From assembly GCA_021414025.1 (NCBI GenBank), contig JAIOPG010000004.1, positions 248,001-312,000 of the forward strand: 64,000 nucleotides of DNA. Direction: 5' to 3'. The notes beneath the pieces were generated by a model, which made no database searches, was not told the DNA's origin, and worked only from the letters and a program-made list of their open reading frames with translations. Of this stretch, positions 25,314 to 60,632 are shown in pieces; within the stretch, counting starts at the first letter, position 1, and every line of letters begins with the position of its first letter. The position numbers and the translations under genes were made by a program. The stretch comes from Planctomycetota bacterium (GTDB lineage: Bacteria > Planctomycetota > Phycisphaerae > Phycisphaerales > SM1A02).

Positions 25314-25930
25314 CAGCCGATCCCTCCACCGCTGGCGGACTTGCTCGGAACCACCCAGGCGTCCACCGTCATGTGCACGACCACCTTGCGCTCGGCCTCC
25401 TTGCGCTGCAGCCGGATGGAGGAGATCGATTCAATCGCCGGGTGCGACTCAATGTCAGCGACGATCTTGGAGAAAACCTCCGGCGAGCACTCGAACTGGA
25501 GCTCGCCGCTCACCTTCGACAGTTTGTCGCCGCCGGCGGACATGCCCGAGAGCCGGGTGCTTGCCCGCTGGGCGTCATAGCCGAAATTCGTGGTGGAATA
25601 TTTCTTCACGATGCCCACGATCGCCTTGGCCATCGACTCGGCGCCCTCGGACTCGCTGCCGATGGGCTCGGCGGGGCCGAAGGTCTCCGGCCCGACGTTC
25701 GAGGCGGAGTCGTTGTTGGCGATCGTCTCCGCAGTGTCGCTCAGGATCTTCTGGATTCGGTCAGCCTGCTCGTTCCAGGATCGTGCCCAGCTCCAGCTCA
25801 GGGCGTCGACGGCGAAATAGGCGACCACGAGGGCCAGCAGGAGCACGCCCCAGCGGCCGGCGGGGGGCAGCGAGCGGATCTGCGCCAGCGTCGGATTGCG
25901 ATCGAGGTTGAAGTCGAGCTTGAGATTCAT
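25313..25930 (-). CDS. GspM/PilO-like inner-membrane component
   Basis: The 205-residue protein has one N-terminal membrane helix (about residues 27-45) followed by a helical stretch and then an alpha-beta domain. That domain has ELQFECSPEVFSKIVADIE and SSIRLQRKEAERKVVVHMTVD, like the ferredoxin fold of GspM and PilO. It lies just after the GspL-like gene and overlaps it by 4 bp, the usual L-then-M order of type II secretion operons. These proteins form the inner-membrane platform with GspL. Confidence 0.65.
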   Translation of the reverse strand: MNLKLDFNLDRNPTLAQIRSLPPAGRWGVLLLALVVAYFAVDALSWSWARSWNEQADRIQKILSDTAETIANNDSASNVGPETFGPAEPIGSESEGAESMAKAIVGIVKKYSTTNFGYDAQRASTRLSGMSAGGDKLSKVSGELQFECSPEVFSKIVADIESHPAIESISSIRLQRKEAERKVVVHMTVDAWVVPSKSASGGGIG

Positions 25931-27873
25931 TTCTTGCCCCTCAGGTGCTTGGTGAGTTTGTCAAACTCCTCCTTGAGCCGCTTCTTCGTCTCGTCGTCCA
26001 CCTCGGCGCTTTGCCGCGCGATGGCCACGCGGCTGATCGCGGCCTGAGCCTCTTCCTTGCTCATGGCGTTGATCTCGGTGTCGCTCAGTGCCGGCGGGAT
26101 GGGCGCCGCGACATTGGCGCTGTCGGGCGTGCGCTCGGAGCGCTTCGGAAGATCCGTGGGCCTTGCCGTCGAGGAGCGCGCGCCGCGGCTGCCCCGTCGC
26201 GTGCCCGAATCCGGTGCGGTCGCACTCTTGGCTTCGCCTTCGGGGGCGGCCTCCGCGCCGCCGCTCTCCGTCGCCGCGGTTCCCGATGGAAGGGCGGCGG
26301 GCTCCTCCTTCATCGGATCGGTCGAGGGGGCGTCGGCGGACGCAGCGCCATGGGTCGGCGCGGCGAGTTCCGTGGAAGCCGCGGGTTTCTCTTCGGATTT
26401 GGCGCTCGCATCCTCCGCGTCGTGGGCGGGCTTGGCGCCGGCGGGCGCCGGTCCATAGCGGCGCTCCGACAAAGTCTTGCGGGCGAAATCCTGCGTCTCC
26501 TTGTAATTGGGTCGCAGGGTCGGCTTGGTCACAGTCGCCGCCAGCGTGAATTTCGCCATTCCCTTGCCGTCGGGCGGCTCCAGCCGCTTGGTCATCTTGT
26601 CGAAAATTTTGCAGTCGCGCATCTGCCGCTCGAAGAGCAGCACCACTTCCATGCCCGACTGGCCATCGTGGCTCTTCGCCTGTCCGTGGATGGAGACGTT
26701 GCGATCCTGCGAGATGGTCAGGTCGTCCCACTCCACGCCCTCGGGCGTCACGTTGGCGATGTCGCCCAGCAGCTTGCCCATGGGCCAGGCGCGGCGCTCG
26801 AGATCCGAGTAGAGATCCAGCTGCTTTTGATAGGCCCGCAGCGAGCGCTCCTTGACATCCAGGTCGCCGACTTTCCAGTGCAGGAGCAGCAGCCGACCTC
26901 CCGCGAAGAGCGGCGGGGCCAGCACCAGCACCAGAAGGCAGAGCAGCACGGCCCGCACGAGCGACTGGGGCTCGGCGAGGCGGTTGAGCCATTCGCCCAG
27001 GCGCTTGGGCCGCTCGCCCATCGGCTGGGCGCGCAGCGACACCAGCGGCTTCTTCGGGCTGAACCAGATCAGGGCCGCCAGCGCCTTCAGGCCATGCTCG
27101 CGCCAGGCCGCGGCGTCGTTGAGTCCGTTCACGCGCTCCTCCAGCGCGGTGCGGTCGCCGAGGGTGCAGCCGAATCCGCCCTCGCCCGCCGCGGCGATCG
27201 CCTCGTCGAGCTGGGCGACCAGCGTCTCCGCCTGCGCCGCGTTCATGCCGCCGCGCAGCGCGCTCTCCACGACCGCCACGGTCGCGGCCTCGGGCCACTG
27301 CTCCGGGTCGATGCGCGTGCTGCGCACCGTCAGTCCCTGCGGCGTCCGCAATGCGAAGGAGAAAGCCGTGCGGTCCGGCGTGACGGTCACCAGCGGGCCG
27401 TCCGCGTATCCATCCATCGTCGCGGCCAGGATGGCCGAGTCGCCGGCGAAGAGCGGCTCTCCGTCCGGGGGCAGATCCCGCGCCAGCGAGGGGCCGGGAT
27501 CGCTCGAGGGCCAGTCCACCACCACGCCGGTGCGTCCGCCATCGTCGGAGCGGAACGCCAGCACCAGGCTCGCCGTGCGCCAGGCGGGCACCGATCCCAG
27601 CTGCTGCGTCTCCGCCTGCAGCTGCAGGGCCGCCTGCAATTTGTCCTCGTCGGTGTCCGGCAGCTCGCAGGTGCGGCAGACCATCCGCGCCGGCTGCAGC
27701 ACCGCGATCGTGGCGGCGGGGGATTTGAAGTTATTCGCCGCCTGGCTCGCGTCCCAGTCGCCCTCCATCACCACGCCGGCGGCGCTGCGGCGGAAGCGGA
27801 TCGCCCGCTCGTCGCTCGCCGAAAGCGCGACCACGCAGTCCGGATCGATCTGGGCTCGGGTTCGACGCTTCAT
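25927..27873 (-). CDS. GspL/PilM-PilN-like inner-membrane platform protein
   Basis: Starting from ATG 27873 the protein has 648 residues. The first 320 or so are a cytoplasmic alpha-beta region that may be a degenerate actin-like GspL/PilM domain. A membrane helix follows at about 330-350 (LLCLLVLVLAPPLFAGG). Next is a PilN-like region with a coiled stretch (RSLRAYQKQLDLYSDLERRA) and a small beta domain. The last 170 residues are low-complexity Ala, Pro, Glu and Ser. An upstream frame extension to 29070 is open but overlaps gspK and is a shadow. The start overlaps the gspK stop as ATGA. Confidence 0.65.
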   Translation of the reverse strand: MKRRTRAQIDPDCVVALSASDERAIRFRRSAAGVVMEGDWDASQAANNFKSPAATIAVLQPARMVCRTCELPDTDEDKLQAALQLQAETQQLGSVPAWRTASLVLAFRSDDGGRTGVVVDWPSSDPGPSLARDLPPDGEPLFAGDSAILAATMDGYADGPLVTVTPDRTAFSFALRTPQGLTVRSTRIDPEQWPEAATVAVVESALRGGMNAAQAETLVAQLDEAIAAAGEGGFGCTLGDRTALEERVNGLNDAAAWREHGLKALAALIWFSPKKPLVSLRAQPMGERPKRLGEWLNRLAEPQSLVRAVLLCLLVLVLAPPLFAGGRLLLLHWKVGDLDVKERSLRAYQKQLDLYSDLERRAWPMGKLLGDIANVTPEGVEWDDLTISQDRNVSIHGQAKSHDGQSGMEVVLLFERQMRDCKIFDKMTKRLEPPDGKGMAKFTLAATVTKPTLRPNYKETQDFARKTLSERRYGPAPAGAKPAHDAEDASAKSEEKPAASTELAAPTHGAASADAPSTDPMKEEPAALPSGTAATESGGAEAAPEGEAKSATAPDSGTRRGSRGARSSTARPTDLPKRSERTPDSANVAAPIPPALSDTEINAMSKEEAQAAISRVAIARQSAEVDDETKKRLKEEFDKLTKHLRGKK

Positions 27874-29282
27874 GGCTCGCGATACTCCAGGATCTTCACG
27901 GGGGATTCGGAACGATCGACTTGCACCACGATCTCGGCCTCGGCGCCCGAGCCTTCGGCCCGGCCTCGGCTGGAGATCAGGTAGACGGTGCTGGTCACAT
28001 CGGCGACTTGTCCCAAAATCATGAGTTGCTCCTGCGTGGCACCGGACAAATCTACGATATCGGCAAGACTCACGAGCCCCTCCGCCTTGGAAATCCGCCG
28101 GCTCAGGATGGAGTCGGCAAAGCGGGTGTCCAGCTGCAGGATGTCGCGCAGCAGGCCGCGGCTGGCGGTGTTGAGGTTGACCTTGCCGGCGTTGGCCTGC
28201 GAGGTCCGCGAGTCCTCGAGGGAGCATTCGTTGAGCACCAGGCGCAGCTGCTTGTTGTCCAGATTCTTGATGGTGCTCGCGGTGGTCGCGGCGGCGCCGC
28301 TGCCGGCGGCGCGGCCGGCGCTGGAGCGCCCGGTCCGGTTGGCCGCGGTCCCGCCGGTGGCGCCCGCGTTGCGGGAGGCCGAAAGCTGCGAGAGCGGCGT
28401 GGCCAGGATGTTCGCCATCCGGGCGTTGTTGGTCTTCGCATAGGCCAGGATCGCCGCGGCCTGCGTCGCGTCGATGTTGGTGCGGGCCGACAGCTCTGCG
28501 GCCGTCGCCTTGCGCAGGTCCAGGCGGGGCTGCCCGCTCGCGGAGGTCGTCACCGGTCGCGTGGCCGCGGTGAGGTATTGCGACCATCCGGCGTCCAGCT
28601 TCCCATCCCCATTGTCGTCCGGCGCGCTGCGCTTGTTGTCGTCCTCGTTGGGGTCGAGCCGTCCGTTCAGATTCCAGTCTTCGCCGCGGACGTATTGCGG
28701 CCAGGCGCCGGCGACCAGCTCCAGCTCCGCGATGGAATGGAAATTTCCGTTGCGCGGCTCGTAGCCCAGCCCGCGGTTGCGGTAGTACTCCGCCTCGGCG
28801 CCGAGCTGCTGGGGATCGTTGTCGGCGTCGCGCCAGTCGTAGATGGAATCCACCACGTCCTGGGTGATGCTGGGCAGGGCGAGCAGCTGCGTGCGCGTCG
28901 CCACGTTGATGTTCAGCTTTGAGTTTTCGTCCAGCGGACCGGCCCACTCCTGTCCGTCGATGAAGTGGCGGATGTCCCAGGTCCCGGTCTCCACCGAGCC
29001 GAAGGCGTTGCTCTCCAGGTCGCGGGTAAGAGCCAGTGCGTCGTCGGGATCGGGATTCTTGTTGTGCCACTCCATGATCGCGATCATGGTCTCGACGCCG
29101 GCGCGGGCGGCCCAGCGGGCCTGCACCCGCGAGATCGACTCCCGTCCGATCGTGGCCTCGCGGAAGGCGATGACCTGCGTGGCGGCGACCACGATGGCGG
29201 CGATGGCAATCGCCCAGATCACCGTGATGGTCACCACGCCTCGGCGCCCGCCGGCGAACGGAATGATCCGGGCCGCGCTCAT
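27870..29282 (-). CDS. gspK: Type II secretion minor pseudopilin GspK
   Basis: This 470-residue protein has an N-terminal pseudopilin helix (VVTITVIWAIAIAAIVVAATQ). An ordered domain follows with two helix-hairpin-helix-like segments, LNINVATRTQLLALPSITQD and LDLRKATAAELSARTNIDAT, characteristic of GspK. GspK is the tip pseudopilin that caps the pseudopilus with GspI and GspJ. A Gly/Ala/Asn-rich insert and an acidic Asp-rich patch around residue 215 (LDPNEDDNKRSAPDDNGDG) look like a flexible or metal-binding loop. It overlaps gspJ and the gspL-like gene by 4 bp each. Confidence 0.82.
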   Translation of the reverse strand: MSAARIIPFAGGRRGVVTITVIWAIAIAAIVVAATQVIAFREATIGRESISRVQARWAARAGVETMIAIMEWHNKNPDPDDALALTRDLESNAFGSVETGTWDIRHFIDGQEWAGPLDENSKLNINVATRTQLLALPSITQDVVDSIYDWRDADNDPQQLGAEAEYYRNRGLGYEPRNGNFHSIAELELVAGAWPQYVRGEDWNLNGRLDPNEDDNKRSAPDDNGDGKLDAGWSQYLTAATRPVTTSASGQPRLDLRKATAAELSARTNIDATQAAAILAYAKTNNARMANILATPLSQLSASRNAGATGGTAANRTGRSSAGRAAGSGAAATTASTIKNLDNKQLRLVLNECSLEDSRTSQANAGKVNLNTASRGLLRDILQLDTRFADSILSRRISKAEGLVSLADIVDLSGATQEQLMILGQVADVTSTVYLISSRGRAEGSGAEAEIVVQVDRSESPVKILEYREP

Positions 29283-30247
29283 GAGGGACCTCCGGGGCGG
29301 TTGCCGCCGCCGCTTGGGGGAGGGCCGCCGCGACCGCCGGTGGAGGGACCGCCGGGAGGCATTTTGCCGCGATTTCCGCCGGTTCCCTGGCCGCCGCCGC
29401 CGGTGGGAATGCGTCCGCCTCCCGATGGATTCATGCCGCTGTTGATCATTCCGGCGCCGGATCCGCCGCTGGAAGTTCCGCCCGTGCTCGCGCCTCCGCC
29501 GACGGCGTCAGTGCCGCCGGCGCCTCCGCCCTGCGCCGCGGCCTCGGCGGCGGCATTGGCCGCGAGTGTCGCCTCGTCCAACTTGGGCGCCGCGACGCGA
29601 TCGATGGGTATCTCGGTCCGCATGACGGTGATGGCGCGCGGATCCTCGTAGGCGTCCTCGCCGGGTCGCACGCCGCTGGCCGTGACGGTGGCCCGGATGG
29701 AGATCGGCAGGCCGTCGATGTCGCTGTCCCACTCCTGAACCCAGCTCGATCCGTCGTAGGCCTCGAAGCGCACGGCGATCACGCCATCGCCGACGGGCTC
29801 GGCGATGCCGCCCGCGTCCTCGTACTCGTCGGGCACCGCGTCGCGCCGGCGCCACAGTGCGGATCCGTCGCGGTCATCCTCGATGCGGTATTGCGTCTCG
29901 TACTCCTCGCCCTCGCCCGAGTAGTCGATGGAGCGGATGGGCCGAAGCCGCGTGGCGAACATGAGCAGCTGGTCGCGGTCCAGTTCGCCCATCGGCGTCC
30001 GGGTGACTTCGGGGGCCAGCCGCAGGCGTGTGTCGAAGAGATCGTCGCTGCGGAGCACGCTCTGCACGTCGCGGCGGATGTTCTCCAGCGCGTCGGTGGC
30101 GCGGCGCGAGGCGGTCATGCGGATGCGCGAGGCGTCGCGGGCCCGGCCCAGCTGGCTCAGCGAGCTCGCCACGGCGCCGGAAATGATCGCGGCGATGATG
30201 ATCGCGACGACCAGCTCGATGATGGTGAATCCGCGCCTAGCCGCCAT
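29279..30247 (-). CDS. gspJ: Type II secretion minor pseudopilin GspJ
   Basis: The 322-residue protein has the prepilin cleavage and methylation site RRGFTIIELVVAIIIAA at the N-terminus, with cleavage expected after the first Gly. The globular domain is GspJ-sized (to about residue 220), with YRIEDDRDGSALWRRRDAVP and AVRFEAYDGSSWVQEW. The last 100 residues are a Gly/Ser-rich, low-complexity tail that ordinary GspJ proteins lack. It overlaps the gspI stop by 11 bp and the gspK start by 4 bp. Confidence 0.8.
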   Translation of the reverse strand: MAARRGFTIIELVVAIIIAAIISGAVASSLSQLGRARDASRIRMTASRRATDALENIRRDVQSVLRSDDLFDTRLRLAPEVTRTPMGELDRDQLLMFATRLRPIRSIDYSGEGEEYETQYRIEDDRDGSALWRRRDAVPDEYEDAGGIAEPVGDGVIAVRFEAYDGSSWVQEWDSDIDGLPISIRATVTASGVRPGEDAYEDPRAITVMRTEIPIDRVAAPKLDEATLAANAAAEAAAQGGGAGGTDAVGGGASTGGTSSGGSGAGMINSGMNPSGGGRIPTGGGGQGTGGNRGKMPPGGPSTGGRGGPPPSGGGNRPGGPS

Positions 30248-30707
30248 TGGCCGCCTCGTGTTTCTTCTCGAACCGTTCCTTGCGGTCGATCGGCTGCTCC
30301 GGCTTGCGGGTCGGCGGTGTCTGCACGTCGCGCGGCGCGACCTTGGTGGCGCAGCGGTGCTTGACGCCGTGGGTGTCGGTCACGGTCGCCATCACGTCCC
30401 ACGCGTCCCCCTCGCCCGTGGAGGTGATGTCGATGGAGAAGCTCCATTCGTTCCAGGGGGCTTCGCAGCGGCCCTCGATGGGACGGCGGCGGGCGAACTG
30501 GACCGGCCCCTCGGCGAGCACCTGCCCAAGCAATTCATCCAGCAGCGCCGAAGCCTGGGCCTCATGCTCGCCGCGCTGCAGCATGACCAGGCTGCGTTGC
30601 GAAAGCGTGATCACCGCCGCCAGCCCCAGGGCCAGCAGCACGCCGCCGAGAATGGCGTCCAGCAGGGCGAAACCGCGGCGGACGGGATGGGAAGCGCGGC
30701 TCACCAT
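30237..30707 (-). CDS. gspI: GspI-like minor pseudopilin
   Basis: The 156-residue product (ATG 30707) begins VSRASHPVRRGFALLDAILGG. Here a pseudopilin-type hydrophobic helix has Asp at mature position 5, where most prepilins carry Glu. The small globular part fits GspI by size and gene position between the H- and J-like genes. GspI nucleates the pseudopilus tip. It overlaps gspH by 7 bp. Confidence 0.65.
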   Translation of the reverse strand: MVSRASHPVRRGFALLDAILGGVLLALGLAAVITLSQRSLVMLQRGEHEAQASALLDELLGQVLAEGPVQFARRRPIEGRCEAPWNEWSFSIDITSTGEGDAWDVMATVTDTHGVKHRCATKVAPRDVQTPPTRKPEQPIDRKERFEKKHEAANGG

Positions 30708-31258
30708 GGCTCGCGGCTCATTCCCCGCGCGTCGAGATCGCGCATGGTGCGCTGGTCCTCCACGATGCGTCCATTGTCCACTCGGATCGGCATCGCGGCG
30801 CCGGGCTCCAGCACCAGCGAGGTGTCGAGGCCGTCGGCGATGACGCGCATCTCGATGCGCGGACGGTTGCCCGAAGGGGAACCGACGATGCGCCATTCGG
30901 ATCCGCCGATGCGCATGCCATCGGCCAGCACGTCGGCCAGCTCGACGCTCTCCGGCATGCGGACCGGCTGCACGTAGCGGTCGGGCACCCACTCGGCGGG
31001 ATCCGCCGGCCGGGCCGGGTTGGGCTCGAGCGTCCAGAGCTCGATCGCGTTGGAGTCGGGGTTCATGTAGATCGCGCATTGCTGCGAGCCGGCGTTGTCG
31101 CGCCACGCGAAGAGGCTGAGCAATTCCGAAAGGCGCTCGATGGCCACGTCGGCCTGTCCCTTGGAGAGGCCCCGGAGCCTGGGGATCACCGCCGCGGAGA
31201 CCACCGCCAGGATCGCGATCACCACAATGAGCTCGATCAACGTGAAGGCGCGGCGCAT
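30701..31258 (-). CDS. gspH: GspH-like minor pseudopilin
   Basis: The product of about 185 residues starts MRRAFTLIELIVVIAILAVV, a standard prepilin leader and helix with the conserved Glu5. ATG 31258 is chosen because AAGG sits 8 nt upstream; a GTG two codons earlier (31264) is also open. The rest is beta-rich, as in GspH. It lies 13 bp after gspG, the usual order. Confidence 0.72.
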   Translation of the reverse strand: MRRAFTLIELIVVIAILAVVSAAVIPRLRGLSKGQADVAIERLSELLSLFAWRDNAGSQQCAIYMNPDSNAIELWTLEPNPARPADPAEWVPDRYVQPVRMPESVELADVLADGMRIGGSEWRIVGSPSGNRPRIEMRVIADGLDTSLVLEPGAAMPIRVDNGRIVEDQRTMRDLDARGMSREPW

Positions 31259-31271
31259 GGGCACCGCCTTT

Positions 31272-31703
31272 TTACGGCGCTCCGTTGATGATGTCTTTGG
31301 CCTGTCCCTCGCCGCCGGGCTGCCCGTCGGAGCCGTAGCACACGACGTCGAAATCTTTGTTGTAGGTCGGCGGGAAGACCAGGACGTACTGGTGCTTCCA
31401 GGGATCGATCAGCTGGTTGGCGTTGCTCAGCAGGGCGTCGTCGCCCTCGCAGAGCTTGGTGAGCTCGAAGTCGTCGGTGACGTGGCTCATGCCGTTCTGA
31501 ACCATGTACAGGCGCACGTTCTGGGCCAGCGTGTTCACGTCGGCCTTTGCCTTGTTGACCTTGGCGTTGCCCAGCAAGCTCATCACGTTGGGGACGATCA
31601 GCATGGAGAGGAGCGCCACGATGGTGACGGCGATGATCACTTCAAGCAGGGTGAAACCGCGGCGTGCTTGACGGAGAGGGCGATGGAGGGCTTGGGGTTT
31701 CAT
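31272..31703 (-). CDS. gspG: Major pseudopilin GspG
   Basis: The 143-residue protein has a 20-residue leader ending RRGFTLLEVIIAVTIVALLS, with cleavage after Gly and Glu at mature position 5. The GspG domain includes NKAKADVNTLAQNVRLYMVQ and the C-terminal pattern DPWKHQYVLVFPPT and YGSDGQPGGEG, a known GspG signature for calcium binding. It builds the pseudopilus shaft. ATG 31703 follows a GAGA site; the longer in-frame extension to 31841 is not family-like. Confidence 0.88.
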   Translation of the reverse strand: MKPQALHRPLRQARRGFTLLEVIIAVTIVALLSMLIVPNVMSLLGNAKVNKAKADVNTLAQNVRLYMVQNGMSHVTDDFELTKLCEGDDALLSNANQLIDPWKHQYVLVFPPTYNKDFDVVCYGSDGQPGGEGQAKDIINGAP

Positions 31704-31845
31704 GAGGGTCTCTTCGGTGTGTTCCAGATAAGGAAGGGGCTCTTCCCAACGTTGGCCGGGCGAATTTACTGCCCATTGGAGTGAAAGTTCTTCCCGCTTC
31801 GACGGGAACAGTGGTCCCATAGCGTAGCCGCGGAGCGGCAAGAAT

Positions 31846-33135
31846 TCAGCCTCCGAGGGCGGATTGCAACTGCAGCAGGGGCATCAAGATGCCCGCCAGC
31901 ACGAAGCCGGCGATGATCGCCATGAAGACCAGCAGGATCGGAGGCAGGGCCTTGGTGAAGATCTTGATGCTGGTGTTCACCTGCCGGTCGAAGGCCGTGG
32001 CGGCGTGCAGCAGCATGCCTTCCAGCCGGCCCGACCGCTCGCCGATGTTGACGATCTGCACCAGCAGCGGGGGGAAGAATCCGCATCGCTCCAGCGGTTC
32101 CGCCAGCGACTGTCCGGTGGTGACCTTCTCCTCCACTTCGTCGATCGCCCTCATCAGGACGGCGTTGCCCAGCGTGTCCTTGGTGATCCGCAGCGACTGC
32201 AGGATGGGCAGGCCGGCGCTCACCAGCGTTCCCAGCGTCCGGGTGAAGCGGGCCACGGCGACATCCCTCAGCAGCTTGCCCAGCAGCGGCGTCCGCAGCA
32301 GTGCGTAGTCCTTCAGGCGCCGATGCTCATCGTCCTGAAGCCAGCGGCGGGCGCCGATGATGGCCCCAAAGACCAGCAGGATCACCAGCCACCACCAATG
32401 CTGCATGAACGAAGCGAAACCCAGCAGAATCCGCGTCGGCAGCGGCAGCACCATGCCGGGCTGCCCGACGATCGGGATCATCAGCTGCGGCAGGATCACG
32501 GTGACCAGCAGCGTGACGCTGGCCAGGATCAGCGCCGCCACGATCATCGGGTAGACGGTGGCGCCGATCAATTCGCGGCGCAATTCCACCGAGCGGTCGA
32601 GCAGGTCGGCCAGCTGGTGCAGCACCTCCGGCATGCGGCCGCTCGCGTCGGCGGCCCGCGCCATGCCGACGGTCATGTCGTCGAAGGGAATGCCGTAGGA
32701 CTTCATGGCCTCGTAGAGCGGCTGGCCCGCCTCGACTTTTTCAATCAGCGTGTCCAGGATGACCGGCTGCGATTTGCCAGGAGCCTGCTTGCGCACGATC
32801 TTCAGCGCCTGCATCAGCGGTAGTCCCGCCTCGATCGCAGTGGCCAGCTCGCGGATCAGATTGGAGAGCTCGGAGCGGGTGAGGGTCGGCCGGCGCGGAC
32901 CCAGCGTCATCCAGCGGGGCAGAGCGCTTTCGCCGGGCCTTGGCGTGGTTGAGGTTGATGTTCGCTGCGTTGAAATTCGCGAGGTGGAGACGACGATTTC
33001 ATTCGATTCGACTTTGAGCGGGGTCAGGCCGCGGCTGCGCACCAGCCGGAGCGCGGCGGCGCGGTCCGTAGCCACCACCACGCCGCTGGATTCCAGTCCG
33101 CTTCGGTCAAGCCCGTCGTAGCGCCAGGAGGCCAT
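31846..33135 (-). CDS. gspF: Type II secretion inner-membrane protein GspF
   Basis: The 429 residues have two copies of the GspF/PilC helical domain, each followed by membrane helices; the segment VILPQLMIPIVGQPGMVLPL is in the first. An N-terminal segment, ATDRAAALRLVRSRGLTPLK, is typical of the family. The repeated pattern (LPLMQALKIVRKQ and LPILQSLRITKDT) supports the call. GspF is the platform protein that contacts the GspE ATPase. It starts 3 bp after the gspE stop. Confidence 0.9.
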   Translation of the reverse strand: MASWRYDGLDRSGLESSGVVVATDRAAALRLVRSRGLTPLKVESNEIVVSTSRISTQRTSTSTTPRPGESALPRWMTLGPRRPTLTRSELSNLIRELATAIEAGLPLMQALKIVRKQAPGKSQPVILDTLIEKVEAGQPLYEAMKSYGIPFDDMTVGMARAADASGRMPEVLHQLADLLDRSVELRRELIGATVYPMIVAALILASVTLLVTVILPQLMIPIVGQPGMVLPLPTRILLGFASFMQHWWWLVILLVFGAIIGARRWLQDDEHRRLKDYALLRTPLLGKLLRDVAVARFTRTLGTLVSAGLPILQSLRITKDTLGNAVLMRAIDEVEEKVTTGQSLAEPLERCGFFPPLLVQIVNIGERSGRLEGMLLHAATAFDRQVNTSIKIFTKALPPILLVFMAIIAGFVLAGILMPLLQLQSALGG

Positions 33136-33138
33136 CGA

Positions 33139-34764
33139 TTAGGCCTCGTCCACGTCCTGGGTGGCGCGCATGACTTCCGCGATGGTGGTCTCGCCGCCGA
33201 TCGCCTTCGCCATGCCGTCCTCGCGCATCGAAACGAATCCCGAGTCGACCAGTTGCCGAAGCTCCATGACGGATTGGTTCTCCGCGATCGCCGCCCGCAA
33301 GGAAGGATTCATCCGGACCAGCTCGAAGAAGCCGAGCCGGCCGCGGAATCCGCTGCCCGAGCAGGCCTCGCATCCGGCGCCGATCGTGACCATGCCGGCG
33401 AATTGCTCGAACTCCGCGGGCGAGATGCGCACGCGGTCGTCCTCGGACATCGCCACCTTCTGGGCGCAGGCCCGGCAGACCCGGCGGCCCAGCCGCTGCG
33501 CCAGCACGCCTTCGAGCACGCTGGCAATCAGGTAGGGCTCGGCGCCCATGTCGACGATGCGGCCCACGCTGGAGAGGGCGTCGTTGGTGTGCAGCGTGCT
33601 CAGGATCAAGTGTCCGGTCAGCGCGCTGCGGATGGCGATGTCGACGGTCTCGGCGTCGCGGATTTCACCCACCAGGATCACGTCGGGATCCTGGCGCAAA
33701 ATGCTGCGCAGACCGCTGGCAAAGGTCAGGCCGCGTTTCGGGTTCACCGGAATCTGGTTGATGCCGGCGAGCTCGTATTCCACCGGGTCCTCGATGGTCA
33801 GGATTTTCTTGCGCGGGTCGTAAAGCTTGCTCAGCGCCGCGTAGAGCGTGGTGGTTTTTCCGCTGCCGGTTGGTCCCGTCACCAGCACGAGTCCGTGCGG
33901 CTTGGAGATCAGCTTGTCCATCATCTCCACCTGGTGCTGGTGCATGCCCAGGCTCTTCAGGTCCAGGGGCAGCGACGACTTGTCCAGGATGCGCATGACC
34001 ACGCTCTCGCCGTAGATCGTGGGCACGGTGGAGACGCGGATGTCCACCTTGCGGCCTTCGAAGCGCAGCGTGATGTGGCCATCCTGCGGAACGTAGCGCT
34101 CCGCGATGTTCATCATGGACATGATCTTGATGCGTCCGATGATCGCGGGCTGCAGATGCTTGGGCGGACTCTGCTGCTCCACCAGCACGCCGTCGATGCG
34201 GTACTTGACCTTCAATTCGCCCTCGAAGGGCTCGATGTGAATGTCGCTGGTGCGCTTCTGGATGGCCTCGAGAATCAGCAGGTTGACCAGGTTGACCAGC
34301 GTGGGCTGCTCGGCCATGCGATGCACGTCGTCGGCCTGGATCGCGTCGAGATTCTGCTCGACTTCGCCGCTGCTTTCGCTGTTGCCTGCCAGGCTCTCCG
34401 CCATCCGCGCCGCGGTGACGCCGTAGGACTGCCGCATAAGCTCGCCGAAAGCCTCGGGCGCCACGCCGACCCGCTCGATCGGCATGTTGGCGATGGTGGC
34501 CGCCTCGTCCACCGCGTGCAGATCAAAGGGATCCGCCATCGCGGCGCGGAGCTTGCCTCCGGCGATCGACAACGGAACCACCCGCAGCCGCACGGCGATT
34601 TCGGAGGGAATCAGGCGGACCGCGTCGGCGTCGGAGGCGACGGGCTTCGCGAGCCAGGTGAATCCCGCGGCGGCGCAGCGCTCCTGGGGCGAGTTCGCGG
34701 CCGCGGCTCGCAGCATCGCGGCGACTCGTCCATTGGCATCACGACTGGGGACAACTTCGGGCAC
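33139..34764 (-). CDS. gspE: Type II secretion ATPase GspE
   Basis: The 541-residue ATPase powers pseudopilus assembly. An N-terminal MshEN/N1E-like domain covers about residues 50-130. The ATPase core includes Walker A (GPTGSGKTTT) near residue 297, an Asp box (ILTIEDPVEYEL), the Walker B region DPDVILVGEIRDAET and the His box GHLILSTLHTNDA. A four-cysteine zinc motif, CRAC and CEAC, lies near 410-450, as in GspE proteins. The start codon is GTG 34764. It begins the E-F-G-H-I-J-K order. Confidence 0.93.
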   Translation of the reverse strand: MPEVVPSRDANGRVAAMLRAAAANSPQERCAAAGFTWLAKPVASDADAVRLIPSEIAVRLRVVPLSIAGGKLRAAMADPFDLHAVDEAATIANMPIERVGVAPEAFGELMRQSYGVTAARMAESLAGNSESSGEVEQNLDAIQADDVHRMAEQPTLVNLVNLLILEAIQKRTSDIHIEPFEGELKVKYRIDGVLVEQQSPPKHLQPAIIGRIKIMSMMNIAERYVPQDGHITLRFEGRKVDIRVSTVPTIYGESVVMRILDKSSLPLDLKSLGMHQHQVEMMDKLISKPHGLVLVTGPTGSGKTTTLYAALSKLYDPRKKILTIEDPVEYELAGINQIPVNPKRGLTFASGLRSILRQDPDVILVGEIRDAETVDIAIRSALTGHLILSTLHTNDALSSVGRIVDMGAEPYLIASVLEGVLAQRLGRRVCRACAQKVAMSEDDRVRISPAEFEQFAGMVTIGAGCEACSGSGFRGRLGFFELVRMNPSLRAAIAENQSVMELRQLVDSGFVSMREDGMAKAIGGETTIAEVMRATQDVDEA

Positions 34765-52777: not shown

Positions 52778-53800
52778 TCAGCCGCCGGACTTGCCGATGG
52801 AGGAGCGCATGTCGGTGTCGGCCTGCACGTTCTTCATCTTGTAGAGATCCATCACGCCCAGATTGCCCGAGCGCAGCGCTTCGGAGATGGCCTTGGGAAT
52901 CTCCGCCTCGGCTAGCACGACCAGGGCGCGGTTCTTCTGCGCCTCGGCGAGATGCTCGGCTTCCTGCGCCACCGCCAGCGCGCGGCGCTGCTCCGCCTCG
53001 GCCTGGAAGCGCTTGCTGTCGGCCTCGGCCTGCGCGGTCTGCAGATTGGCGCCGATGTTGGCGCCGACGTCGATCTCGGCGATGTCGATGGAGAGAATCT
53101 CGAAGGCCGTTCCCGAGTCCAGCCCCTTGGCCAGCACGGTCTTGGAGATGCGGTCGGGCTGCTCGAGCACGGTCTTGTGGCTCTGCGAGGCGCCGATGGT
53201 GGCGATGATGCCTTCGCCGACGCGGGCGACAATCGTTTCCTCAGTGGCGCCGCCGACCAGGCGAACGAGATTGGTGCGCACCGTCACGCGCGCCTTGCAG
53301 CGCAACTGGATTCCATCCTGGGCCACCGCGTCCACCGTCAATTTTCCGCTGACCTGGCTCGGGCAGTCGATGACCTTCGGATCGACGCTGGTCTTGACCG
53401 CTTCCAGAATGTCGCGGCCGGCCAGGTCGATCGCCGTCGCGCGATCCCAGCCCAAATCAATCTTCGCCTTGTCGGAGGCAATCATGGCGCGGATGACCCG
53501 GTCCACGCGTCCGCCCGCCATGTAGTGGGCTTCGAGCATGTTGGTGGGCACCTCGATGCCGGCCTTCTTGGCCATGATCCGGTTCAGCACGATCACGCTT
53601 GGCGGAACCTTGCGCAGCCGCATCATGATCAGGTCGAGCAGGCTGACCCGGGCGCCGGAAAGAAACGCCTGCAGCCAGAGCTGCAGATACTGGCTGATGA
53701 TCACCAGAATGATCAGCCCGAACAGGGCGAGAATGCCGAAGCCGATCATCATGAGGTAGTACAGCGTGTCCGAGGCTGCAAGAATCAACGTGGTGTGCAT
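52778..53800 (-). CDS. floA: Flotillin-like protein FloA
   Basis: The 340-residue protein has an N-terminal membrane hairpin (about 10-36) and then the UPF0365/FloA region [34 protein letters not shown]-like domain follows, and then a helical Glu/Ala region ([20 protein letters not shown]) typical of flotillin oligomers. FloA organises membrane microdomains and is often encoded with NfeD. Here the two nfeD genes lie directly upstream on the same strand. ATG 53800 has TAGAAT 6 nt upstream and no Shine-Dalgarno. Confidence 0.92.
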
Positions 53801-53806
53801 GCGGCG

Positions 53807-53812
53807 ATTCTA
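53807..53812 (-). promoter_or_regulatory. Putative -10 element for leaderless floA
   Basis: On the minus strand TAGAAT (5 of 6 consensus bases) is followed by 6 nt and the ATG at 53800. It lies in the 45-bp gap after the short nfeD gene. Confidence 0.55.
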
Positions 53813-53845
53813 ACAAGGGATCGCGCATGCAGGCGCGGCGCTCGG

Positions 53846-54397
53846 TCACTTGGAATCGTCGGCCCGGACGCGCAGCGTGCCATCTTCCACGCCGGTCACT
53901 CGAACGTGCCGGCCCACCTCGATGAATCCTTCTTCGGCCAGCGCTTCGCGCCGATCCGACCCGATGCGGATCCAACCCACCGGCCGCAACGTGGTCTCCG
54001 CGCGGCCCACGGTTCCGATCGCAATAGTGCCCGACACGCTCACACCGGCTTCGCCCGGTTGCGTCCGCGAAGGATCCTGGATGGATTGCGAAAGCACGAC
54101 GCGGTGCGCCAGCGGCGAATTGCTCCAGAGCTTCAATCCATATCCGATCATGACCGGCGCTCCGGCGAGCGAGGCCGCCAGCGAGGCGAGACCCCAGGTG
54201 GCCGAATGCATGAAGAAGCAGAAGACCCCCGAGGCCGCCGCGAGCACGCAGAGCGTGGCGATCAATCCGCCGCTGGGAAGGACAAACTCCAGCGCGAACA
54301 GGATCAACGCGGCGCCGAAAAGCGCGAAACCCCAGATCAGCCAGGCGTCGTCCGGCGCGGCGGCGGCCTGCTGGGCCAGCATCAGAATGGAATTCAT
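53846..54397 (-). CDS. Short NfeD-family protein
   Basis: The 183-residue protein has two or three membrane helices and a C-terminal OB-fold NfeD domain (GRAETTLRPVGWIRIGSDRR). It lacks the protease domain of the long form. It overlaps the stop of the long nfeD gene as ATGA and precedes floA by 45 bp. Known NfeD-flotillin pairs suggest it helps FloA at the membrane. Confidence 0.82.
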   Translation of the reverse strand: MNSILMLAQQAAAAPDDAWLIWGFALFGAALILFALEFVLPSGGLIATLCVLAAASGVFCFFMHSATWGLASLAASLAGAPVMIGYGLKLWSNSPLAHRVVLSQSIQDPSRTQPGEAGVSVSGTIAIGTVGRAETTLRPVGWIRIGSDRREALAEEGFIEVGRHVRVTGVEDGTLRVRADDSK

Positions 54398-56097
54398 GTC
54401 ACGTGCTCCACGATCATTTCATTGCCTTCGGCCCGGAGGATACGGACACGGGCGCCAGCGGGAATCCACGATCCTTCGCTGCGGGCGTCGAAGCGGACTC
54501 CATCAAGCTCAATCCGGCCCACCGGGCGCAGGTCGGTCGCGGCCAGCGCCGTCGTTCCGGCCGCTGGTGCCGCAAGCCTTGAAGTCGCAGCGGTCGCAAC
54601 ACCCAGCGCGGCGGTGTTCACCGCGGACTTCCACGGCCCAAACATCTGCAGCCTGGGTCCCAGCAGCCAGGTGACCAGCACCGCGCCTCCGACCGAAGTC
54701 ACCAGCGACGCCACGCCAAGAAAAGCCTGCCGTGCGGTGGACTCCGGCGTGGGGTCGGAGACCAGGAACAATCCGATCACGCCCGCGGTGAAAGCCGCGA
54801 CTCCAAGAATTCCGCTGACCAGCGAGCCGGGAAACAGCAGCATCTCGAGGGCGATCAACACCAGCCCGACCAGGATCGCCAGCGCCGGCCACCACTCGGA
54901 AAGCCCGGCGAGAAAGGAGCCGCCCGCCAGCAGCATCACGCAGATGGCCCCGGCCAGGCCGAACATGCCCAGCCCCGGCGAGGACATCTCGCCGAAGAAG
55001 CAGATGACCAGGATGGTGACCAGCAGCGTGCGTGCCCACCAGCTTGTGAGCAGCCTCGCCAGCTGCTCGCTCCAAGGAGCGGAGATCACGAAGATCTGGC
55101 TTGCGCCAAGGAACGATTTCATCTGCGCCTCGTCGGCGATCGTGGCCGAAGCCACTCCCAGGGCGATGGCTTCGTCGGCCTGCAGGGTCAGCAACTCGTT
55201 CGCCGCGTCGATTTGTGAAACCAGCCGCAGACGCGGGCGGTCCGCTGCGGTCAGCGGGGCGCGGCTGGGCAGGATTGCCTGGTTTCGATTCGATTCCGAG
55301 GCGGCCTCCACGGATTCGGCTTGGCGCAGCGCATCCGTCCGAAAGGGAATCAGCGTCGGCGCTTCCGCAGCCACGTCACCGGTTTCACCTGACTCCGATC
55401 CCGTTGGCGATTGCGTTGCTTCCGGATCCGCCGACGATGTCACTGGCGCAATCGCCGCGGACGGACTTCCACGCGTGCGAACGGGTGCTTCGCCGAAAAC
55501 CGCCTGGTACTCGTTGGCGTCCACCACATAGCGCTCCCCGCGGGCGCCGTCCTCGACCAGCCAGAGCTCTTCGCCCACGGCCACAAAGGCACGGGCCAGC
55601 CGCTCGTCGTGGCCGGCGCGGCGGGAGCTGTCCGTGACCTCCGACAACAGCGGGGCCTCCAACTTGGCCCGCTCCGGGGCGGGCAGCGCCACCAACCCGG
55701 CCAGCGGCATGGCGGCGATCGGCGCGGCGTCGCCCAGCACTGCGTGCGGCGCCACCACAATTTCCCGGCACGCCAGCGCGGTGATGACACCGGCGCTGTA
55801 GGCCCGCGGCCGGATCCACGCGATGGTGTTCGGCGGGTAGTCCGCCTTGATCTGGCGGCAGAGCTCCAGCGTCGCCAGCAGGTCGCCCCCCGGCGTGTCC
55901 AGCTGCAGCACGATCGCGTCGGCGCCGCCGGCGCGGGCCTGCGCCAGGCGCCGGGACAGACCGGACACGGTCAGCGCATCCATCTCGCCCTCGATCGGAA
56001 GGATGCAGACCACCGACGCCTTGCGTGCGGAGGGGATTCCCGTTGGCGGGGCGGCAAGCTGGAAAAGGAGAAGCGGCAGGAGCCAGAGGGAAGTCAC
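54394..56097 (-). CDS. NfeD-type membrane-bound serine protease
   Basis: The 567-residue protein starts with a signal helix, then a ClpP/SppA-like protease domain at about 30-170. Its segments are ADAIVLQLDTPGGDLLATLE and IRPRAYSAGVITALACREIVV, where the Ser of YSAG is the likely nucleophile. Four or five membrane helices and a C-terminal NfeD OB domain (TDLRPVGRIELDGVRFDARSE) follow. The start is GTG 56097 with TAGAAT 6 nt upstream. With the short nfeD and floA it forms a typical NfeD-flotillin operon. Confidence 0.85.
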   Translation of the reverse strand: MTSLWLLPLLLFQLAAPPTGIPSARKASVVCILPIEGEMDALTVSGLSRRLAQARAGGADAIVLQLDTPGGDLLATLELCRQIKADYPPNTIAWIRPRAYSAGVITALACREIVVAPHAVLGDAAPIAAMPLAGLVALPAPERAKLEAPLLSEVTDSSRRAGHDERLARAFVAVGEELWLVEDGARGERYVVDANEYQAVFGEAPVRTRGSPSAAIAPVTSSADPEATQSPTGSESGETGDVAAEAPTLIPFRTDALRQAESVEAASESNRNQAILPSRAPLTAADRPRLRLVSQIDAANELLTLQADEAIALGVASATIADEAQMKSFLGASQIFVISAPWSEQLARLLTSWWARTLLVTILVICFFGEMSSPGLGMFGLAGAICVMLLAGGSFLAGLSEWWPALAILVGLVLIALEMLLFPGSLVSGILGVAAFTAGVIGLFLVSDPTPESTARQAFLGVASLVTSVGGAVLVTWLLGPRLQMFGPWKSAVNTAALGVATAATSRLAAPAAGTTALAATDLRPVGRIELDGVRFDARSEGSWIPAGARVRILRAEGNEMIVEHVT

Positions 56098-56271: not shown

Positions 56272-57258
56272 TCAATCCCAGTTCTTGTCTTCGTCCTTGA
56301 TGACCGTCTTGGTGAAGGTCGCGCCGGTGAGGGTCGCGGTGACTTCCTTGACGACGCAGAGGTAGGCGTCCGTGGTTCCCACGGTGTCATCGCCCTTGAA
56401 GATGTTGTCGAAACCAAGAGCCGCCGTACCGGAGGTCGCGGCCGAGCCGCAGGAGGTGTCGCCCGAGGGGGGAGTCTTGCCGCCGGGGACGCAGACCATG
56501 CCTTCCGGATAGAAGGTTCGAGCGAAGGAGAGATGGTCATCGTTGTAGCAGAGGTTGCCTTCCCATTCGTTCTTCGCTCCGTGAATCTCGAGCGTCTTGG
56601 AATTGGTGTAGTCGTCGGCGTCGGTGACTCCAAACTTCACGCCGCGGTTGCCCACGATCGGGAAGCGGCTGCCGCTGGTGGCACCCACGCGCCACTGCAT
56701 GTCGCGGCGGCAGGAGACCTTGGCGGTCGAGTCCTTCATGAGCAGGGGCATCGCCGCGTAGCTGGTGCCGCTGATCGTGGTGAGGTCGGTCTGGAAATTG
56801 CCCTTGACGCCCGGGTTGGACGAGCTCGGGTTGGTCAGGTCGCCGTCCCAGTACACGTCGGCGGCCGGCTTGTACTGGTTGTAGTCGTAGTTCGAGCAGA
56901 CCGCCACGTTGCCCGATGCCTCGGAGGGGCTGACCAGAATCTGCGGAGAGATGAACTGCTGCGCGATGCAGGCCGAGTAGAGGTTGGCATGACTGTTCTT
57001 GCCTTCATCCTCGGTGCCGCGGCCGGGCAGCGTGCCGATCCGGTTGATCTCGCCAGGAAGCGGGAAGGTGCCGCGCGGGCTGTCCGTTCCCTTGGTGACC
57101 CAGGCCTTGTGGACCTGCTGGATCTGGGTTCCATCCTTGACCTGGCGGGCCGTGGCTCGGGCCTTGGCCAGCGCGGGCAGGAGGAGTCCCAGCAGGAGGG
57201 CGATGATCGCCATGACGACGAGCAATTCAATCAGCGTAAATCCATTGTGCTTTTTCAT
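56272..57258 (-). CDS. Prepilin-like protein, second of a tandem pair
   Basis: The 328-residue protein begins KKHNGFTLIELLVVMAIIALL, a prepilin leader and methylated helix with Glu at position 5. A large domain follows with NEWEGNLCYNDDHLSFARTF near residue 235, the place of the planctomycete H-X9-DG motif. Such proteins are numerous in planctomycetes and may form surface pseudopili or be secretion substrates. It resembles the next upstream gene throughout, for example the HAKAW-type region after the helix and the YKPAADVYWDGDLT segment. A strong terminator follows it. Confidence 0.82.
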   Translation of the reverse strand: MKKHNGFTLIELLVVMAIIALLLGLLLPALAKARATARQVKDGTQIQQVHKAWVTKGTDSPRGTFPLPGEINRIGTLPGRGTEDEGKNSHANLYSACIAQQFISPQILVSPSEASGNVAVCSNYDYNQYKPAADVYWDGDLTNPSSSNPGVKGNFQTDLTTISGTSYAAMPLLMKDSTAKVSCRRDMQWRVGATSGSRFPIVGNRGVKFGVTDADDYTNSKTLEIHGAKNEWEGNLCYNDDHLSFARTFYPEGMVCVPGGKTPPSGDTSCGSAATSGTAALGFDNIFKGDDTVGTTDAYLCVVKEVTATLTGATFTKTVIKDEDKNWD

Positions 57259-57316: not shown

Positions 57317-57340
57317 CAGCCCGCGTCAGCCGGCGGGCTG
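57317..57340 (-). terminator. Hairpin between the two pilin genes
   Basis: Perfect 8-bp arms CAGCCCGC and GCGGGCTG flank an 8-nt loop that includes the stop codon of the upstream pilin gene. On the minus strand only a short U run follows. It may act as a partial terminator or protect the 3' end of the upstream message. Confidence 0.4.
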
Positions 57341-58357
57341 GGTGCTGCCGTCGTCGTTCGGATCGAACAGCGGGTCTCCGATGTTGACCTGCGAAATGGT
57401 GCTGGAGAAGATGCCCAGCCAGGTGTCGCCGGCCGAGCGAGGAAGCAGGGTCGTGCCGTTGGGACCGCCGGTCTTGTTGCACTTGGTGGCGGTCTTGGAG
57501 GTGGCGGAGGTCGGGAAGTCAGCGTCGAAGATGTCGTCGCGCTTCGAATCGGCGCCGCCGCACTCGTAGACCACGCCCTCAGGCTTGAAGGAGGTGGTCA
57601 GATCGATGTGGTTGTCGGCGAAGCAGACATTGCCGTTCCATTCCTGCTTCGGCCCGATGATGCCCACCGCGTAGCAGTGGATGGACGTGTTGGGATCGGT
57701 GCGGAAGGAAGGCTTCAAACCGCGGGTGCTCATGAGCGGCTTGGTCGAATCGGCGGTGTTCTTCCACTGCGTGTCGCGGCGAATGCCCCAAAGAGCGTTG
57801 TGGGCATACGAAGTGTTGCACCATCCTGGAAGCGGTGACGCACTACCTGTGATGGGGTCTTTGGTGAAAGTTTGAGTTGACGCGTTGGCAGGCATGGAGG
57901 TCGCGGAGACCTTGTCGCCGAATCCATAGTCCCAGTACACATCGAGGGCGGGCTTGTACTTGGTGAAATCGTAGGGACGGGTTCCGCCCTTGCCCATTTC
58001 CACCACGAGCGGGTTGCGCTCGGTCGGGCCATAGACCAGGTCGGGGTTGAAGTATTCCTTTGCGATCATGCAGGAATAAAGGTTGCGAGTGGTGTTCGCG
58101 CCATACGCTTCCTCGCCGACGCCCTGCTCCGAACCCTGGCGATCGATCATGCCGGGAACCGGAAGGGAGCCCTTCTTGTCGCTGTTGGCGGCAATGAGCA
58201 TGCCGGCGTGGATCTGCTTGATCTGGGCGCGATCCTTGGTTTCGCGGGCGTTCTGCTGGGCCTTGGACAGGGCGGGCAGCAGAAGACCGATGAGCAGCGC
58301 GATGATTGAAATGACGACCAGAAGTTCGATGAGAGTGAAGCCGCGATTCTTACGCAT
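57326..58357 (-). CDS. Prepilin-like protein, first of a tandem pair
   Basis: From ATG 58357 (GGAG upstream) the 343-residue product starts RKNRGFTLIELLVVISIIALL, a prepilin leader. The following domain includes YKPALDVYWDYGFGDK and KQEWNGNVCFADNHIDLTTS, the counterpart of the family's H-X9-DG region. It resembles the downstream pilin gene over its whole length, so the pair arose by duplication. No pilus ATPase or peptidase is beside it, but the type II secretion operon in this window could process or assemble it. Confidence 0.82.
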   Translation of the reverse strand: MRKNRGFTLIELLVVISIIALLIGLLLPALSKAQQNARETKDRAQIKQIHAGMLIAANSDKKGSLPVPGMIDRQGSEQGVGEEAYGANTTRNLYSCMIAKEYFNPDLVYGPTERNPLVVEMGKGGTRPYDFTKYKPALDVYWDYGFGDKVSATSMPANASTQTFTKDPITGSASPLPGWCNTSYAHNALWGIRRDTQWKNTADSTKPLMSTRGLKPSFRTDPNTSIHCYAVGIIGPKQEWNGNVCFADNHIDLTTSFKPEGVVYECGGADSKRDDIFDADFPTSATSKTATKCNKTGGPNGTTLLPRSAGDTWLGIFSSTISQVNIGDPLFDPNDDGSTQPAG

Positions 58358-59339: not shown

Positions 59340-60632
59340 TTATTTTCGAAGCAGCAGAAGCGCCAGGTTGATCATGAGGCTCGCCACGAGAAGTCCGCCC
59401 AGAAGCAGGATTTTCCAGGAGAGGCCGCTTGATGGGCCGGAAAGTTGGCGCACTTCAGTGGGCGGTGCTTCGCCTTCCGCTGTGTTGGTGGCCAGCGAGG
59501 AGACCAGTGAATGCGTGGGCCTTGCGTGGATCGGGTCGTGGCCGTTGCGGGCCGACTCAAGATCCTCAAGCAGCTGCGCCGCGCTCTGGTAGCGATCACG
59601 CGGATCCTTGGCCATCATCATCTCGATGATCAACGCGACGCCGGTCGTGAGCTCCGGCACTACGTGGTCGGGGGGCACCAGCGGATCGCGGATCTGCCGC
59701 TGCATGACCTCGGTGGGGTTCTTGCCTTCGAAGGGGACTTTGCCCGTCACCATGTGATAGAAGGTGGCACCAAGTCCATAGATGTCCGCGGCCGGGCCGA
59801 TGGTGACGACGCCGCGGGCCTGTTCGGGGCTGATGTAGTAGGGGGTGCCGAAGGCCTTGCCGGCCTCCGATTCGGCGGCCTCGCGGTCGCTGATCGCGCG
59901 GGCGAGTCCAAGATCGGCCAGCTTCACCACCTCGGCCTTGTTGATCATCATGTTCTTGGGCTTGATGTCGCGGTGAATGAACCCCTGCAAGTGGGCGTGC
60001 TTGAGGGCCTTGGCGACCTGGATGATGATCTCGATCGCCTCCTTTTCCTCAATGCGGCGCTTGCGCAGGATGCGGTCGTGCACGGTCTCGCCGTCGACGT
60101 ACTCCATGACGAAGTAGTGGTTGTCGCCGGCTTGGCCGACGTCCAGCGCGCCGACGATGTGCTGGTCATTGAGTTTGGCGGCGGCGCGGCCCTCTTTATA
60201 GAAGCGCTCGATGAACTTCGGGTCGCTGGAATACTTCCGGGGGAGGATCTTGATCGCGACCAGGCGGTCCAGCGAAAGCTGCTTGGCCAGGAAGACCGTG
60301 GCCATGGCGCCGGCGCCGAGCTTCTTCATCATCTGGTAGCCGGGGATGGCCTGCTGCGGCCGCTCGCTCTCCAGTTCGCGCTGCACCCGGGCGAACTGGC
60401 GGCGGGTGATGACTTCCTTCTGGATCAGGATGTCGCTCAGGCGGCTGCCCGGCGGCAGGCGCTTCAGAAGCTCGCGGCATTTGTCGACTTCATCGCTGGT
60501 GGCCAGGCCGCGCTCGACCACGTACCGGCCGACAATGGTGTCCCCGCCCGAGCGGCCGGCGGCGCTGTCGCCCGGTGAGCGGGATTGCCCGGCGGGGTCC
60601 GGACTGCTGGGTATGGGAGTGGGTTCGGTCAC
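59340..60632 (-). CDS. Ser/Thr protein kinase with an N-terminal GspE-N/MshEN-like region
   Basis: From GTG 60632 the product has 430 residues. A low-complexity start (1-30) is followed by a two-repeat helical region at 31-90, VVERGLATSDEVDKCRELL and LSDILIQKEVITRRQFAR, which resembles the N-terminal MshEN/T2SSE_N module of secretion ATPases. A Hanks-type kinase domain covers about 98-370: LGAGAMATVFLAK, VAIKILPRK, HRDIKPKNMMIN and LADLGLARA. A single membrane helix at the C-terminus anchors it. The longer frame upstream is a shadow. A fusion of this kind could link phosphorylation to the type II secretion machinery; this is inference. Confidence 0.83.
   Translation of the reverse strand: MTEPTPIPSSPDPAGQSRSPGDSAAGRSGGDTIVGRYVVERGLATSDEVDKCRELLKRLPPGSRLSDILIQKEVITRRQFARVQRELESERPQQAIPGYQMMKKLGAGAMATVFLAKQLSLDRLVAIKILPRKYSSDPKFIERFYKEGRAAAKLNDQHIVGALDVGQAGDNHYFVMEYVDGETVHDRILRKRRIEEKEAIEIIIQVAKALKHAHLQGFIHRDIKPKNMMINKAEVVKLADLGLARAISDREAAESEAGKAFGTPYYISPEQARGVVTIGPAADIYGLGATFYHMVTGKVPFEGKNPTEVMQRQIRDPLVPPDHVVPELTTGVALIIEMMMAKDPRDRYQSAAQLLEDLESARNGHDPIHARPTHSLVSSLATNTAEGEAPPTEVRQLSGPSSGLSWKILLLGGLLVASLMINLALLLLRK

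Follow-up and report, generated by a model that had tools for sequence, protein, structure and literature searches.

The window analysed here, 64,000 nucleotides from a Phycisphaerae genome (Planctomycetota), contains a gene in which an N-terminal helical module is placed before a Hanks-type Ser/Thr kinase domain and a C-terminal membrane anchor. The gene starts with GTG and its frame is open further upstream, leaving the exact start unsure; same-genus relatives mostly align from residue 1 or 2. The gene and its main parts are as follows.

59340-60632, minus strand: MshEN_N, Hanks-type Ser/Thr kinase and tail anchor gene, 430 aa
60363-60542, minus strand: degenerate MshEN_N four-helix module, residues 31-90 (NF053729, PDB profile matches, AlphaFold and Foldseek)
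59568-60338, minus strand: kinase domain, residues 99-355 (PF00069, E 4.7e-52)
Within the kinase domain: catalytic residues VAIK Lys128, HRD Asp222, DLG Asp240 and SPE Glu270 (residue conservation)
59346-59417, minus strand: C-terminal transmembrane helix, residues ~406-429 (structure model and hydrophobic TM window)

A sequence-only reading of this gene had described the kinase as complete and of Hanks type, with a membrane anchor at its C-terminus, and both parts of that description hold across the family. All four hallmarks of such kinases (VAIK Lys, HRD Asp, DFG-type Asp and APE-type Glu) occur in the window protein, and Lys128, Arg221 and Asp222 of HRD, Asp240 and Glu270 are invariant in 91/91 aligned family rows, of which the window's own gene is one and from which the partial copies L018, L103 and L107 and exact duplicates were left out. 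The DFG position reads DLG in 49 of these rows and DMG in 42. The closest solved relatives of the domain are PknB, PknA and StkP, and residue conservation suggests that the window kinase is probably active. A hydrophobic transmembrane segment was found at the C-terminus in 92/92 rows (the query plus 91 aligned), corresponding to a modelled helix at 384-407 of the trimmed chain. Since this segment stands at the very C-terminus, with a median of 4 residues beyond it, we infer that the kinase is cytoplasmic and tail-anchored and has no extracytoplasmic sensor. PknB-type Hanks kinases share the kinase domain, whereas the window kinase differs from them in its tail anchor, its N-terminal module and its lack of a PASTA-like sensor.

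Residues 31-90 had been read as two helical repeats of the GspE-N/MshEN type, and the profile evidence bears this out. NF053729 (an NCBIfam model, c-di-GMP_motif, related to MshE) matched the full window protein at residues 35-83 with 16.1 bits (E 0.0072), the window N-domain alone (76 aa) with 20 bits (E 4.3e-4) and the same domain in the genome search with 19.2 bits, every one of these scores lying below the curated cut-off of 38 bits. The same model was matched by 48/49 family N-domains (the window's included) with a best E of 6.4e-8, while the next family was matched by 4/49. Searched against the PDB, the family N-domain profile found Thermus thermophilus PilF (E 1.9e-6), the PilF GSPII-A domain (6.7e-4) and PilB (0.002), with MshE only at 0.23 and unrelated proteins appearing from 0.003 (nitrile hydratase) and 0.054 (elongation factor). 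The family alignments A1 and A2 were built without 6/54 non-redundant members that have longer spacers (L078, L081, L085, L099, L102 and L105).

Structural modelling, which the earlier reading had named as a check, pointed to the same fold. An AlphaFold model of the N-domain alone, made from the family alignment, has four helices (mean pLDDT 83, core block means of 90-96), and its top three Foldseek chains were two chains of MshE (TM 0.62 and 0.66; for 5htl_B, the latter, rmsd 1.2 A over 55 columns) and 9g1w, PilF GSPII-A (TM 0.65). The Foldseek E-values of these chains are weak (0.78-1.6, none passing 0.001), which we attribute to the query having 76 residues. VIA gave Z scores of 9.0 for MshE and 5.3 for GSPII-A, to be read with the caveat that helical bundles with Z under about 13 may reflect just a common arrangement; because the best unrelated row, human fumarase, scores 5.8, the GSPII-A row alone is unconvincing, and because of the warning on helical bundles, sequence evidence weighs most for module identity. 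The model, in line with the sequence profiles, has two tandem helix-turn-helix repeats arranged as a four-helix bundle. Taken together, the profiles and the model show that residues ~31-90 are, beyond chance, a genuine member of the MshEN_N fold.

The architecture recurs in other genomes, as a search for it confirmed. With the N-terminal 101 aa as query, 57/61 genomes (the window's own and 60 relatives) gave matches at E <= 2.5e-6, the four without a match being G012, G025 and G029 (72-77% complete) and G060 (91% complete). A profile of the module matched 193 of 294 sampled phylum genomes, including 22 of the window's own class, and that class was absent among the 20 listed of the 101 non-matching phylum genomes (apparently ordered by kinship). 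These matches show a near-universal occurrence of the predicted module-kinase in Phycisphaerae. Module and kinase lie in one ORF at all 30 loci retrieved from the phylum search and at 41/48 loci outside the class, where the other 7 include some cut at the end of the stretch; the 48 combine 8 of the 30 with 40 picked from among the highest-ranked rows, some of which were skipped, so that selection favours high-scoring loci and the proportions are not phylum-wide rates.

The surroundings of the kinase gene bear on what the module might do. Three features of the window are relevant here.

57326-58357, minus strand: prepilin-like neighbour 1 (N_methyl, PF07963)
56272-57258, minus strand: prepilin-like neighbour 2, a paralogue of neighbour 1 (N_methyl, PF07963)
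21003-34764, minus strand: T2SS operon with secretin, GspE, GspF, GspG, J- and K-type pseudopilins and a prepilin at the GspH position

Downstream of the kinase gene come an opposite-strand gene of the RidA type, the two prepilin-like genes (in both of which the N-terminal methylation motif, N_methyl, alone was recognised), two NfeD genes and FloA. On the upstream side, in divergent orientation, are Maf, LpxK and HldE-like genes, the last two named from their sequences. The FloA flotillin-like gene and the short and long NfeD genes (52778-56097, minus strand) are part of a conserved block. Because the opposite-strand RidA gene stands between them, the kinase and the pilins are not one operon in the window.

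Prepilin-like genes were found near the kinase in 48/75 loci (the distant loci L111, L113 and L114 being left out of 78), 33 of them with the prepilins downstream on the same strand and 15 with the prepilins upstream and divergent; the remainder comprise 2 loci with another placement and 25 without a prepilin, some contigs being too short to tell. Downstream prepilins score >= 91 bits against the window's pair in 32/33 loci (just 42 in L058) and are therefore probably orthologous to it. The upstream divergent ones, the nearest of which is at most 400 bases away from the kinase frame in 12/15 loci, look like another kind, since they reach only 32-56 bits. Where at least 5 kb of flanking sequence was available, a prepilin was present downstream in 28/56 loci and upstream in 12/48. 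In control regions searched with the same pattern, a simple N-terminal motif rather than a curated model, we counted 3 prepilins in 400 kb of the window's own genome (5.7% of 6-kb bins) and, in an equal length drawn from four relatives, 5 (8.1%), 3 of these 5 falling in 100 kb of G056. The second pilin has 16 matches across the 2.8 Mb of the window's own genome, and prepilin-like genes are denser in some relatives, with over 100 first-look candidates in certain genomes.

These arrangements cluster by descent, changing 14 times in total on the tree versus 29 in shuffles (on a tree without 13/75 loci, of which 11 were aligned under other ids and L103 and L107 are partial), and the kinase loci are thus not independent cases. 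The synteny may also be passive, because the pilins sit in a wider block (RidA, NfeD and FloA on one side, Maf and LpxK on the other), and among module-kinases of other orders or classes no prepilin-like gene was found in 14/15 regions of 13-18 kb. Linkage of kinase and prepilin is partly plain inherited gene order; the pilin link is a real feature of the lineage with modest functional weight.

The genome carries T2SS and T4P-type machinery, and the T2SS operon lies ~25 kb from the kinase gene, which stands outside it. The gene at 25927-27873 of the window, without a Pfam match at E <= 0.01, is a GspL candidate on account of its position, and the genome also encodes a PilM-like protein (C2:299202-300194). 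For GspE of the window (33139-34764, minus strand) the Pfam MshEN match begins at model position 11, and neither NF053729 (in the genome search) nor the family profile found an MshEN_N helical subdomain in it; two assembly-type ATPases elsewhere in the genome carry NF053729 above its cut-off. One might speculate that the kinase module substitutes for the missing part of GspE.

The alternative that fares best takes the module as an intramolecular regulatory or dimerisation element without any link to pili, secretion or c-di-GMP, with the pilin neighbours as passive synteny. It would suit the short linker that sets the module directly before the kinase, both in the window protein and among the members inspected, the tandem modules of kinases from other classes (mostly without pilin neighbours) and the retention of the neighbourhood as one block. 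The two prepilin configurations with different prepilin kinds, 33 downstream and 15 divergent upstream, argue against it, since a single passive block does not explain them, and we regard this alternative as possible if somewhat unlikely.

A further claim of the sequence-only reading was that the fusion might tie the kinase to c-di-GMP. In MshE the ligand is held by two 24-residue motifs with the contacts R9, L10, G11, L25, L29 and Q32 in the first and R38, L39, G40, L54, L58 and Q61 in the second (PMC5013675, in part). The window protein has a recognisable copy of each.

60465-60536, minus strand: motif I copy, residues 33-56; the R9 position is I and the Q32 position L, with G11 and G18 kept
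60372-60443, minus strand: motif II copy, residues 64-87; R38 and L39 are kept, with G40 changed to S, G47 to E, L58 to Q and Q61 to L

Key contacts have been lost from all or nearly all of the family: R9, L58 and Q61 are each present in 0/91 rows, G40 in 6/91, Q32 in 9/91 and R38 in 12/91. Counted in the best register for each sequence (which inflates the count equally for the family, the comparison set and shuffles), the query keeps 6/12 contacts and the family 4-8 (6 in 42 rows, 7 in 29); shuffled family sequences likewise gave 4-8 of 12 with a mode of 5, so the family's agreement with the contact pattern is barely above that of shuffled sequence. The 12-contact count was adopted because one non-hydrophobic core residue is enough to fail the published 24-residue pattern (e.g., L150). 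In its relaxed form that pattern matched 0/91 family rows and, among modules from outside the class, both motifs in 1/64 and one motif in 16/64; a strict version of our own matched both motifs in 0/64 and one in 11/64 of the outside modules. Given these losses, binding of c-di-GMP in the MshE manner by the window family appears unlikely, and the proposed tie finds no support in this family despite 5 GGDEF matches in the genome. Module residues outside the contact set are strongly conserved (Gln79 in 91/91, Thr76 in 90/91 and Arg82 in 80/91 rows), which argues that the module retains a job other than c-di-GMP.

The module might instead be a sensor of c-di-GMP or another cyclic dinucleotide that switches the kinase through an altered binding mode. 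G11 and L39 are kept in 77/91 and 74/91 rows, an aliphatic residue stands at the L10 position in 90/91 and at the L25 position in 91/91, and among other planctomycete kinases some modules keep 11-12 of 12 contacts (9/64) or exceed the NF053729 cut-off (3/6 scanned). Changes of R9 or Q32 in MshE seemingly altered affinity by not over fivefold, as reported in part of PMC5013675, and this mild effect, with GGDEF proteins in the genome, leaves room for an altered ligand mode. Against such a sensor stand the complete loss of R9, L58 and Q61, the loss of G40 in 85/91 rows and the near-shuffled contact agreement. The MshE variants G11L and G40I are described as binding c-di-GMP poorly if at all (PMC5013675, in part), and PilF GSPII-A, which deviates at key positions, shows no binding in the portion of PMC12002112 that we cite. 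We judge the sensor improbable. An argument that the host has no c-di-GMP signalling was dropped, GGDEF proteins being present in 61/61 genomes (the window's own and 60 relatives).

The chance that the N-terminus is an ordinary linker resembling MshEN by accident is close to nil, for although 16.1 bits against a cut-off of 38, the lack of a Pfam MshEN match and the weak Foldseek E-values would fit it, we hold it refuted by the NF053729 matches in 48/49 members, the PDB profile matches to PilF and PilB, the fold match to MshE and PilF GSPII-A and the four confident helices; neither of the outcomes that had been named in advance as refuting the module, absence of a structural match or a plain linker, was observed.

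We favour a different reading, which we put at about an even call: that the protein is a tail-anchored Hanks-type kinase, predicted to be active, whose decayed MshEN_N bundle docks a partner, most likely a pilus or T2SS platform, and does not bind c-di-GMP. The module would no longer read c-di-GMP in the MshE way. No match to an MshEN_C subdomain was found in the window kinase, and the protein matched neither PF00437 (T2SSE ATPase) nor PF05157 (MshEN) in Pfam at E <= 1. An MshEN_N bundle without MshEN_C could act as an arm, docking or allosteric, by which the membrane-anchored kinase reaches a partner at the inner membrane; the likeliest is a component of a pilus or T2SS-type assembly platform (PilM- or GspL-like) or an assembly ATPase. 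There the kinase might phosphorylate parts of the machine, responding to the state of the machine rather than to a messenger. Partner docking is our best guess for the module's job, and a tie of the kinase to pseudopili is possible.

The suggestion that the fusion ties the kinase to secretion or pseudopili therefore stands in part. Its support is circumstantial: the prepilin-like genes near the kinase and the N-termini of XpsE and EpsE, reported to bind XpsL and EpsL, which are GspL-type proteins (PMC6325625, in part); the distance to the T2SS operon and the regions of other orders and classes without a prepilin weigh against it. SpkA of Synechocystis resembles the window kinase as a Ser/Thr kinase tied to pilin regulation, being listed among pilin-regulation genes in the part of PMC7076178 cited here. 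By analogy, SpkA may be a precedent for kinase control of pili. To our knowledge it carries no MshEN module.

Comparison with solved modules places the window protein among relatives with other partners. The Vibrio cholerae MshE MshEN domain (PDB 5HTL; PMC5013675, in part), the best structural match, likewise has two 24-residue repeats in a four-helix bundle; unlike in MshE, the window module is joined to a kinase rather than an ATPase, lacks an MshEN_C match, has lost its c-di-GMP contacts and has a repeat spacer of 7 instead of 5. Thermus thermophilus PilF GSPII-A (PDB 9G1W) ranks high among the solved matches in both sequence and structure, but it belongs to a traffic ATPase whose two other GSPII domains do bind, according to sections of PMC12002112. 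The N-domain of XpsE/GspE is an MshEN homologue in which, like the window module, c-di-GMP binding has been lost (in XpsE through several contact changes; PMC5013675, in part), but it belongs to a T2SS ATPase. The kinase has no such ATPase domain. We take the XpsE/GspE N-terminal domain to include the C-subdomain.

Elsewhere in the phylum the ligand site is in better condition. Several proteins from outside the class carry two or three modules, and some genomes have at least 19 matches (19 candidates were scored per genome). Nine of the 64 outside modules retain 11-12 of 12 c-di-GMP contacts; the module-kinases concerned (L150, L156, L158, L148, L165, L174, L176, L161 and L190) are, on their motifs, candidate c-di-GMP-gated Ser/Thr kinases. 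Among six outside proteins scanned, three exceeded the NF053729 cut-off (44.6, 43.5 and 62.1 bits), and the 12-of-12 module of L150 scored 37.2. In a kinase-domain tree, made by a quick method with SH-aLRT support only, 40 rows from the window's class and from further records grouped in one branch (support 95), and every one of them has a low contact count; L026, a row of the same family, fell outside it. Because the deeper branches are weak and the rows long, we claim no single origin of the fusion in the phylum. The simplest reading is that the lineage inherited an MshEN-kinase whose ligand site then decayed, with the deep tree too weak to demonstrate it. A bolder combination, that the intact-motif kinases of Planctomycetota are c-di-GMP-gated and the Phycisphaerae member is a pseudopilus or secretion-platform kinase with a docking surface that its own GspE lacks, we think unlikely and offer tentatively. 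The grading from intact to decayed motifs across the phylum makes c-di-GMP gating of Ser/Thr phosphorylation testable with paired proteins.

Planctomycete kinases are numerous, and their inputs are mostly unknown. A class-wide kinase with a recognisable input module would give a concrete handle on them. The combination of MshEN and Ser/Thr kinase is not new in kind, having been named already by Wang et al. 2016, who mention, in a single main-text sentence, proteins that join these two domains (PMC5013675, in part); the portion of that main text drawn on here describes no such family, anchor, degeneration or neighbourhood. Odelgard et al. 2024 surveyed kinases of the same phylum with Pfam, reporting membrane-spanning proteins with accessory domains, and the main text of PMC11032199 nowhere uses the words MshEN, T2SSE, GspE, secretion or di-GMP. 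Searches of the open-access literature, a scope that leaves subscription papers mostly outside, returned nothing on MshEN with Planctomycetes and kinase or on c-di-GMP with Planctomycetota and protein kinase, and none among the top matches listed in broader searches treats this MshEN_N-kinase family.

When the 49 family N-domains were searched against Pfam, MshEN (PF05157) was absent among the 25 listed of 39 families, which suggests that surveys using Pfam alone would miss the architecture; by contrast, the Pfam MshEN model matched the window GspE, where no helical N-subdomain was found. If so, a large class of MshEN_N-Ser/Thr kinases in Planctomycetota may have been overlooked by Pfam-based kinase surveys. 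The commonest Pfam matches of these N-domains, FumaraseC_C (29 members) and the nitrile hydratase beta N-terminus (9), were weak and were set aside as look-alike helical hairpins.

Some proteins of the phylum depart from the single-module, single-kinase plan. In L168 one reverse-strand ORF (577-3024) combines three MshEN-like modules with two tandem kinase domains, and at L155, L169, L177, L166, L186 and L188 the ORF holds at least two modules, while the stretch retrieved gave no match to a kinase, some of these ORFs being cut off.
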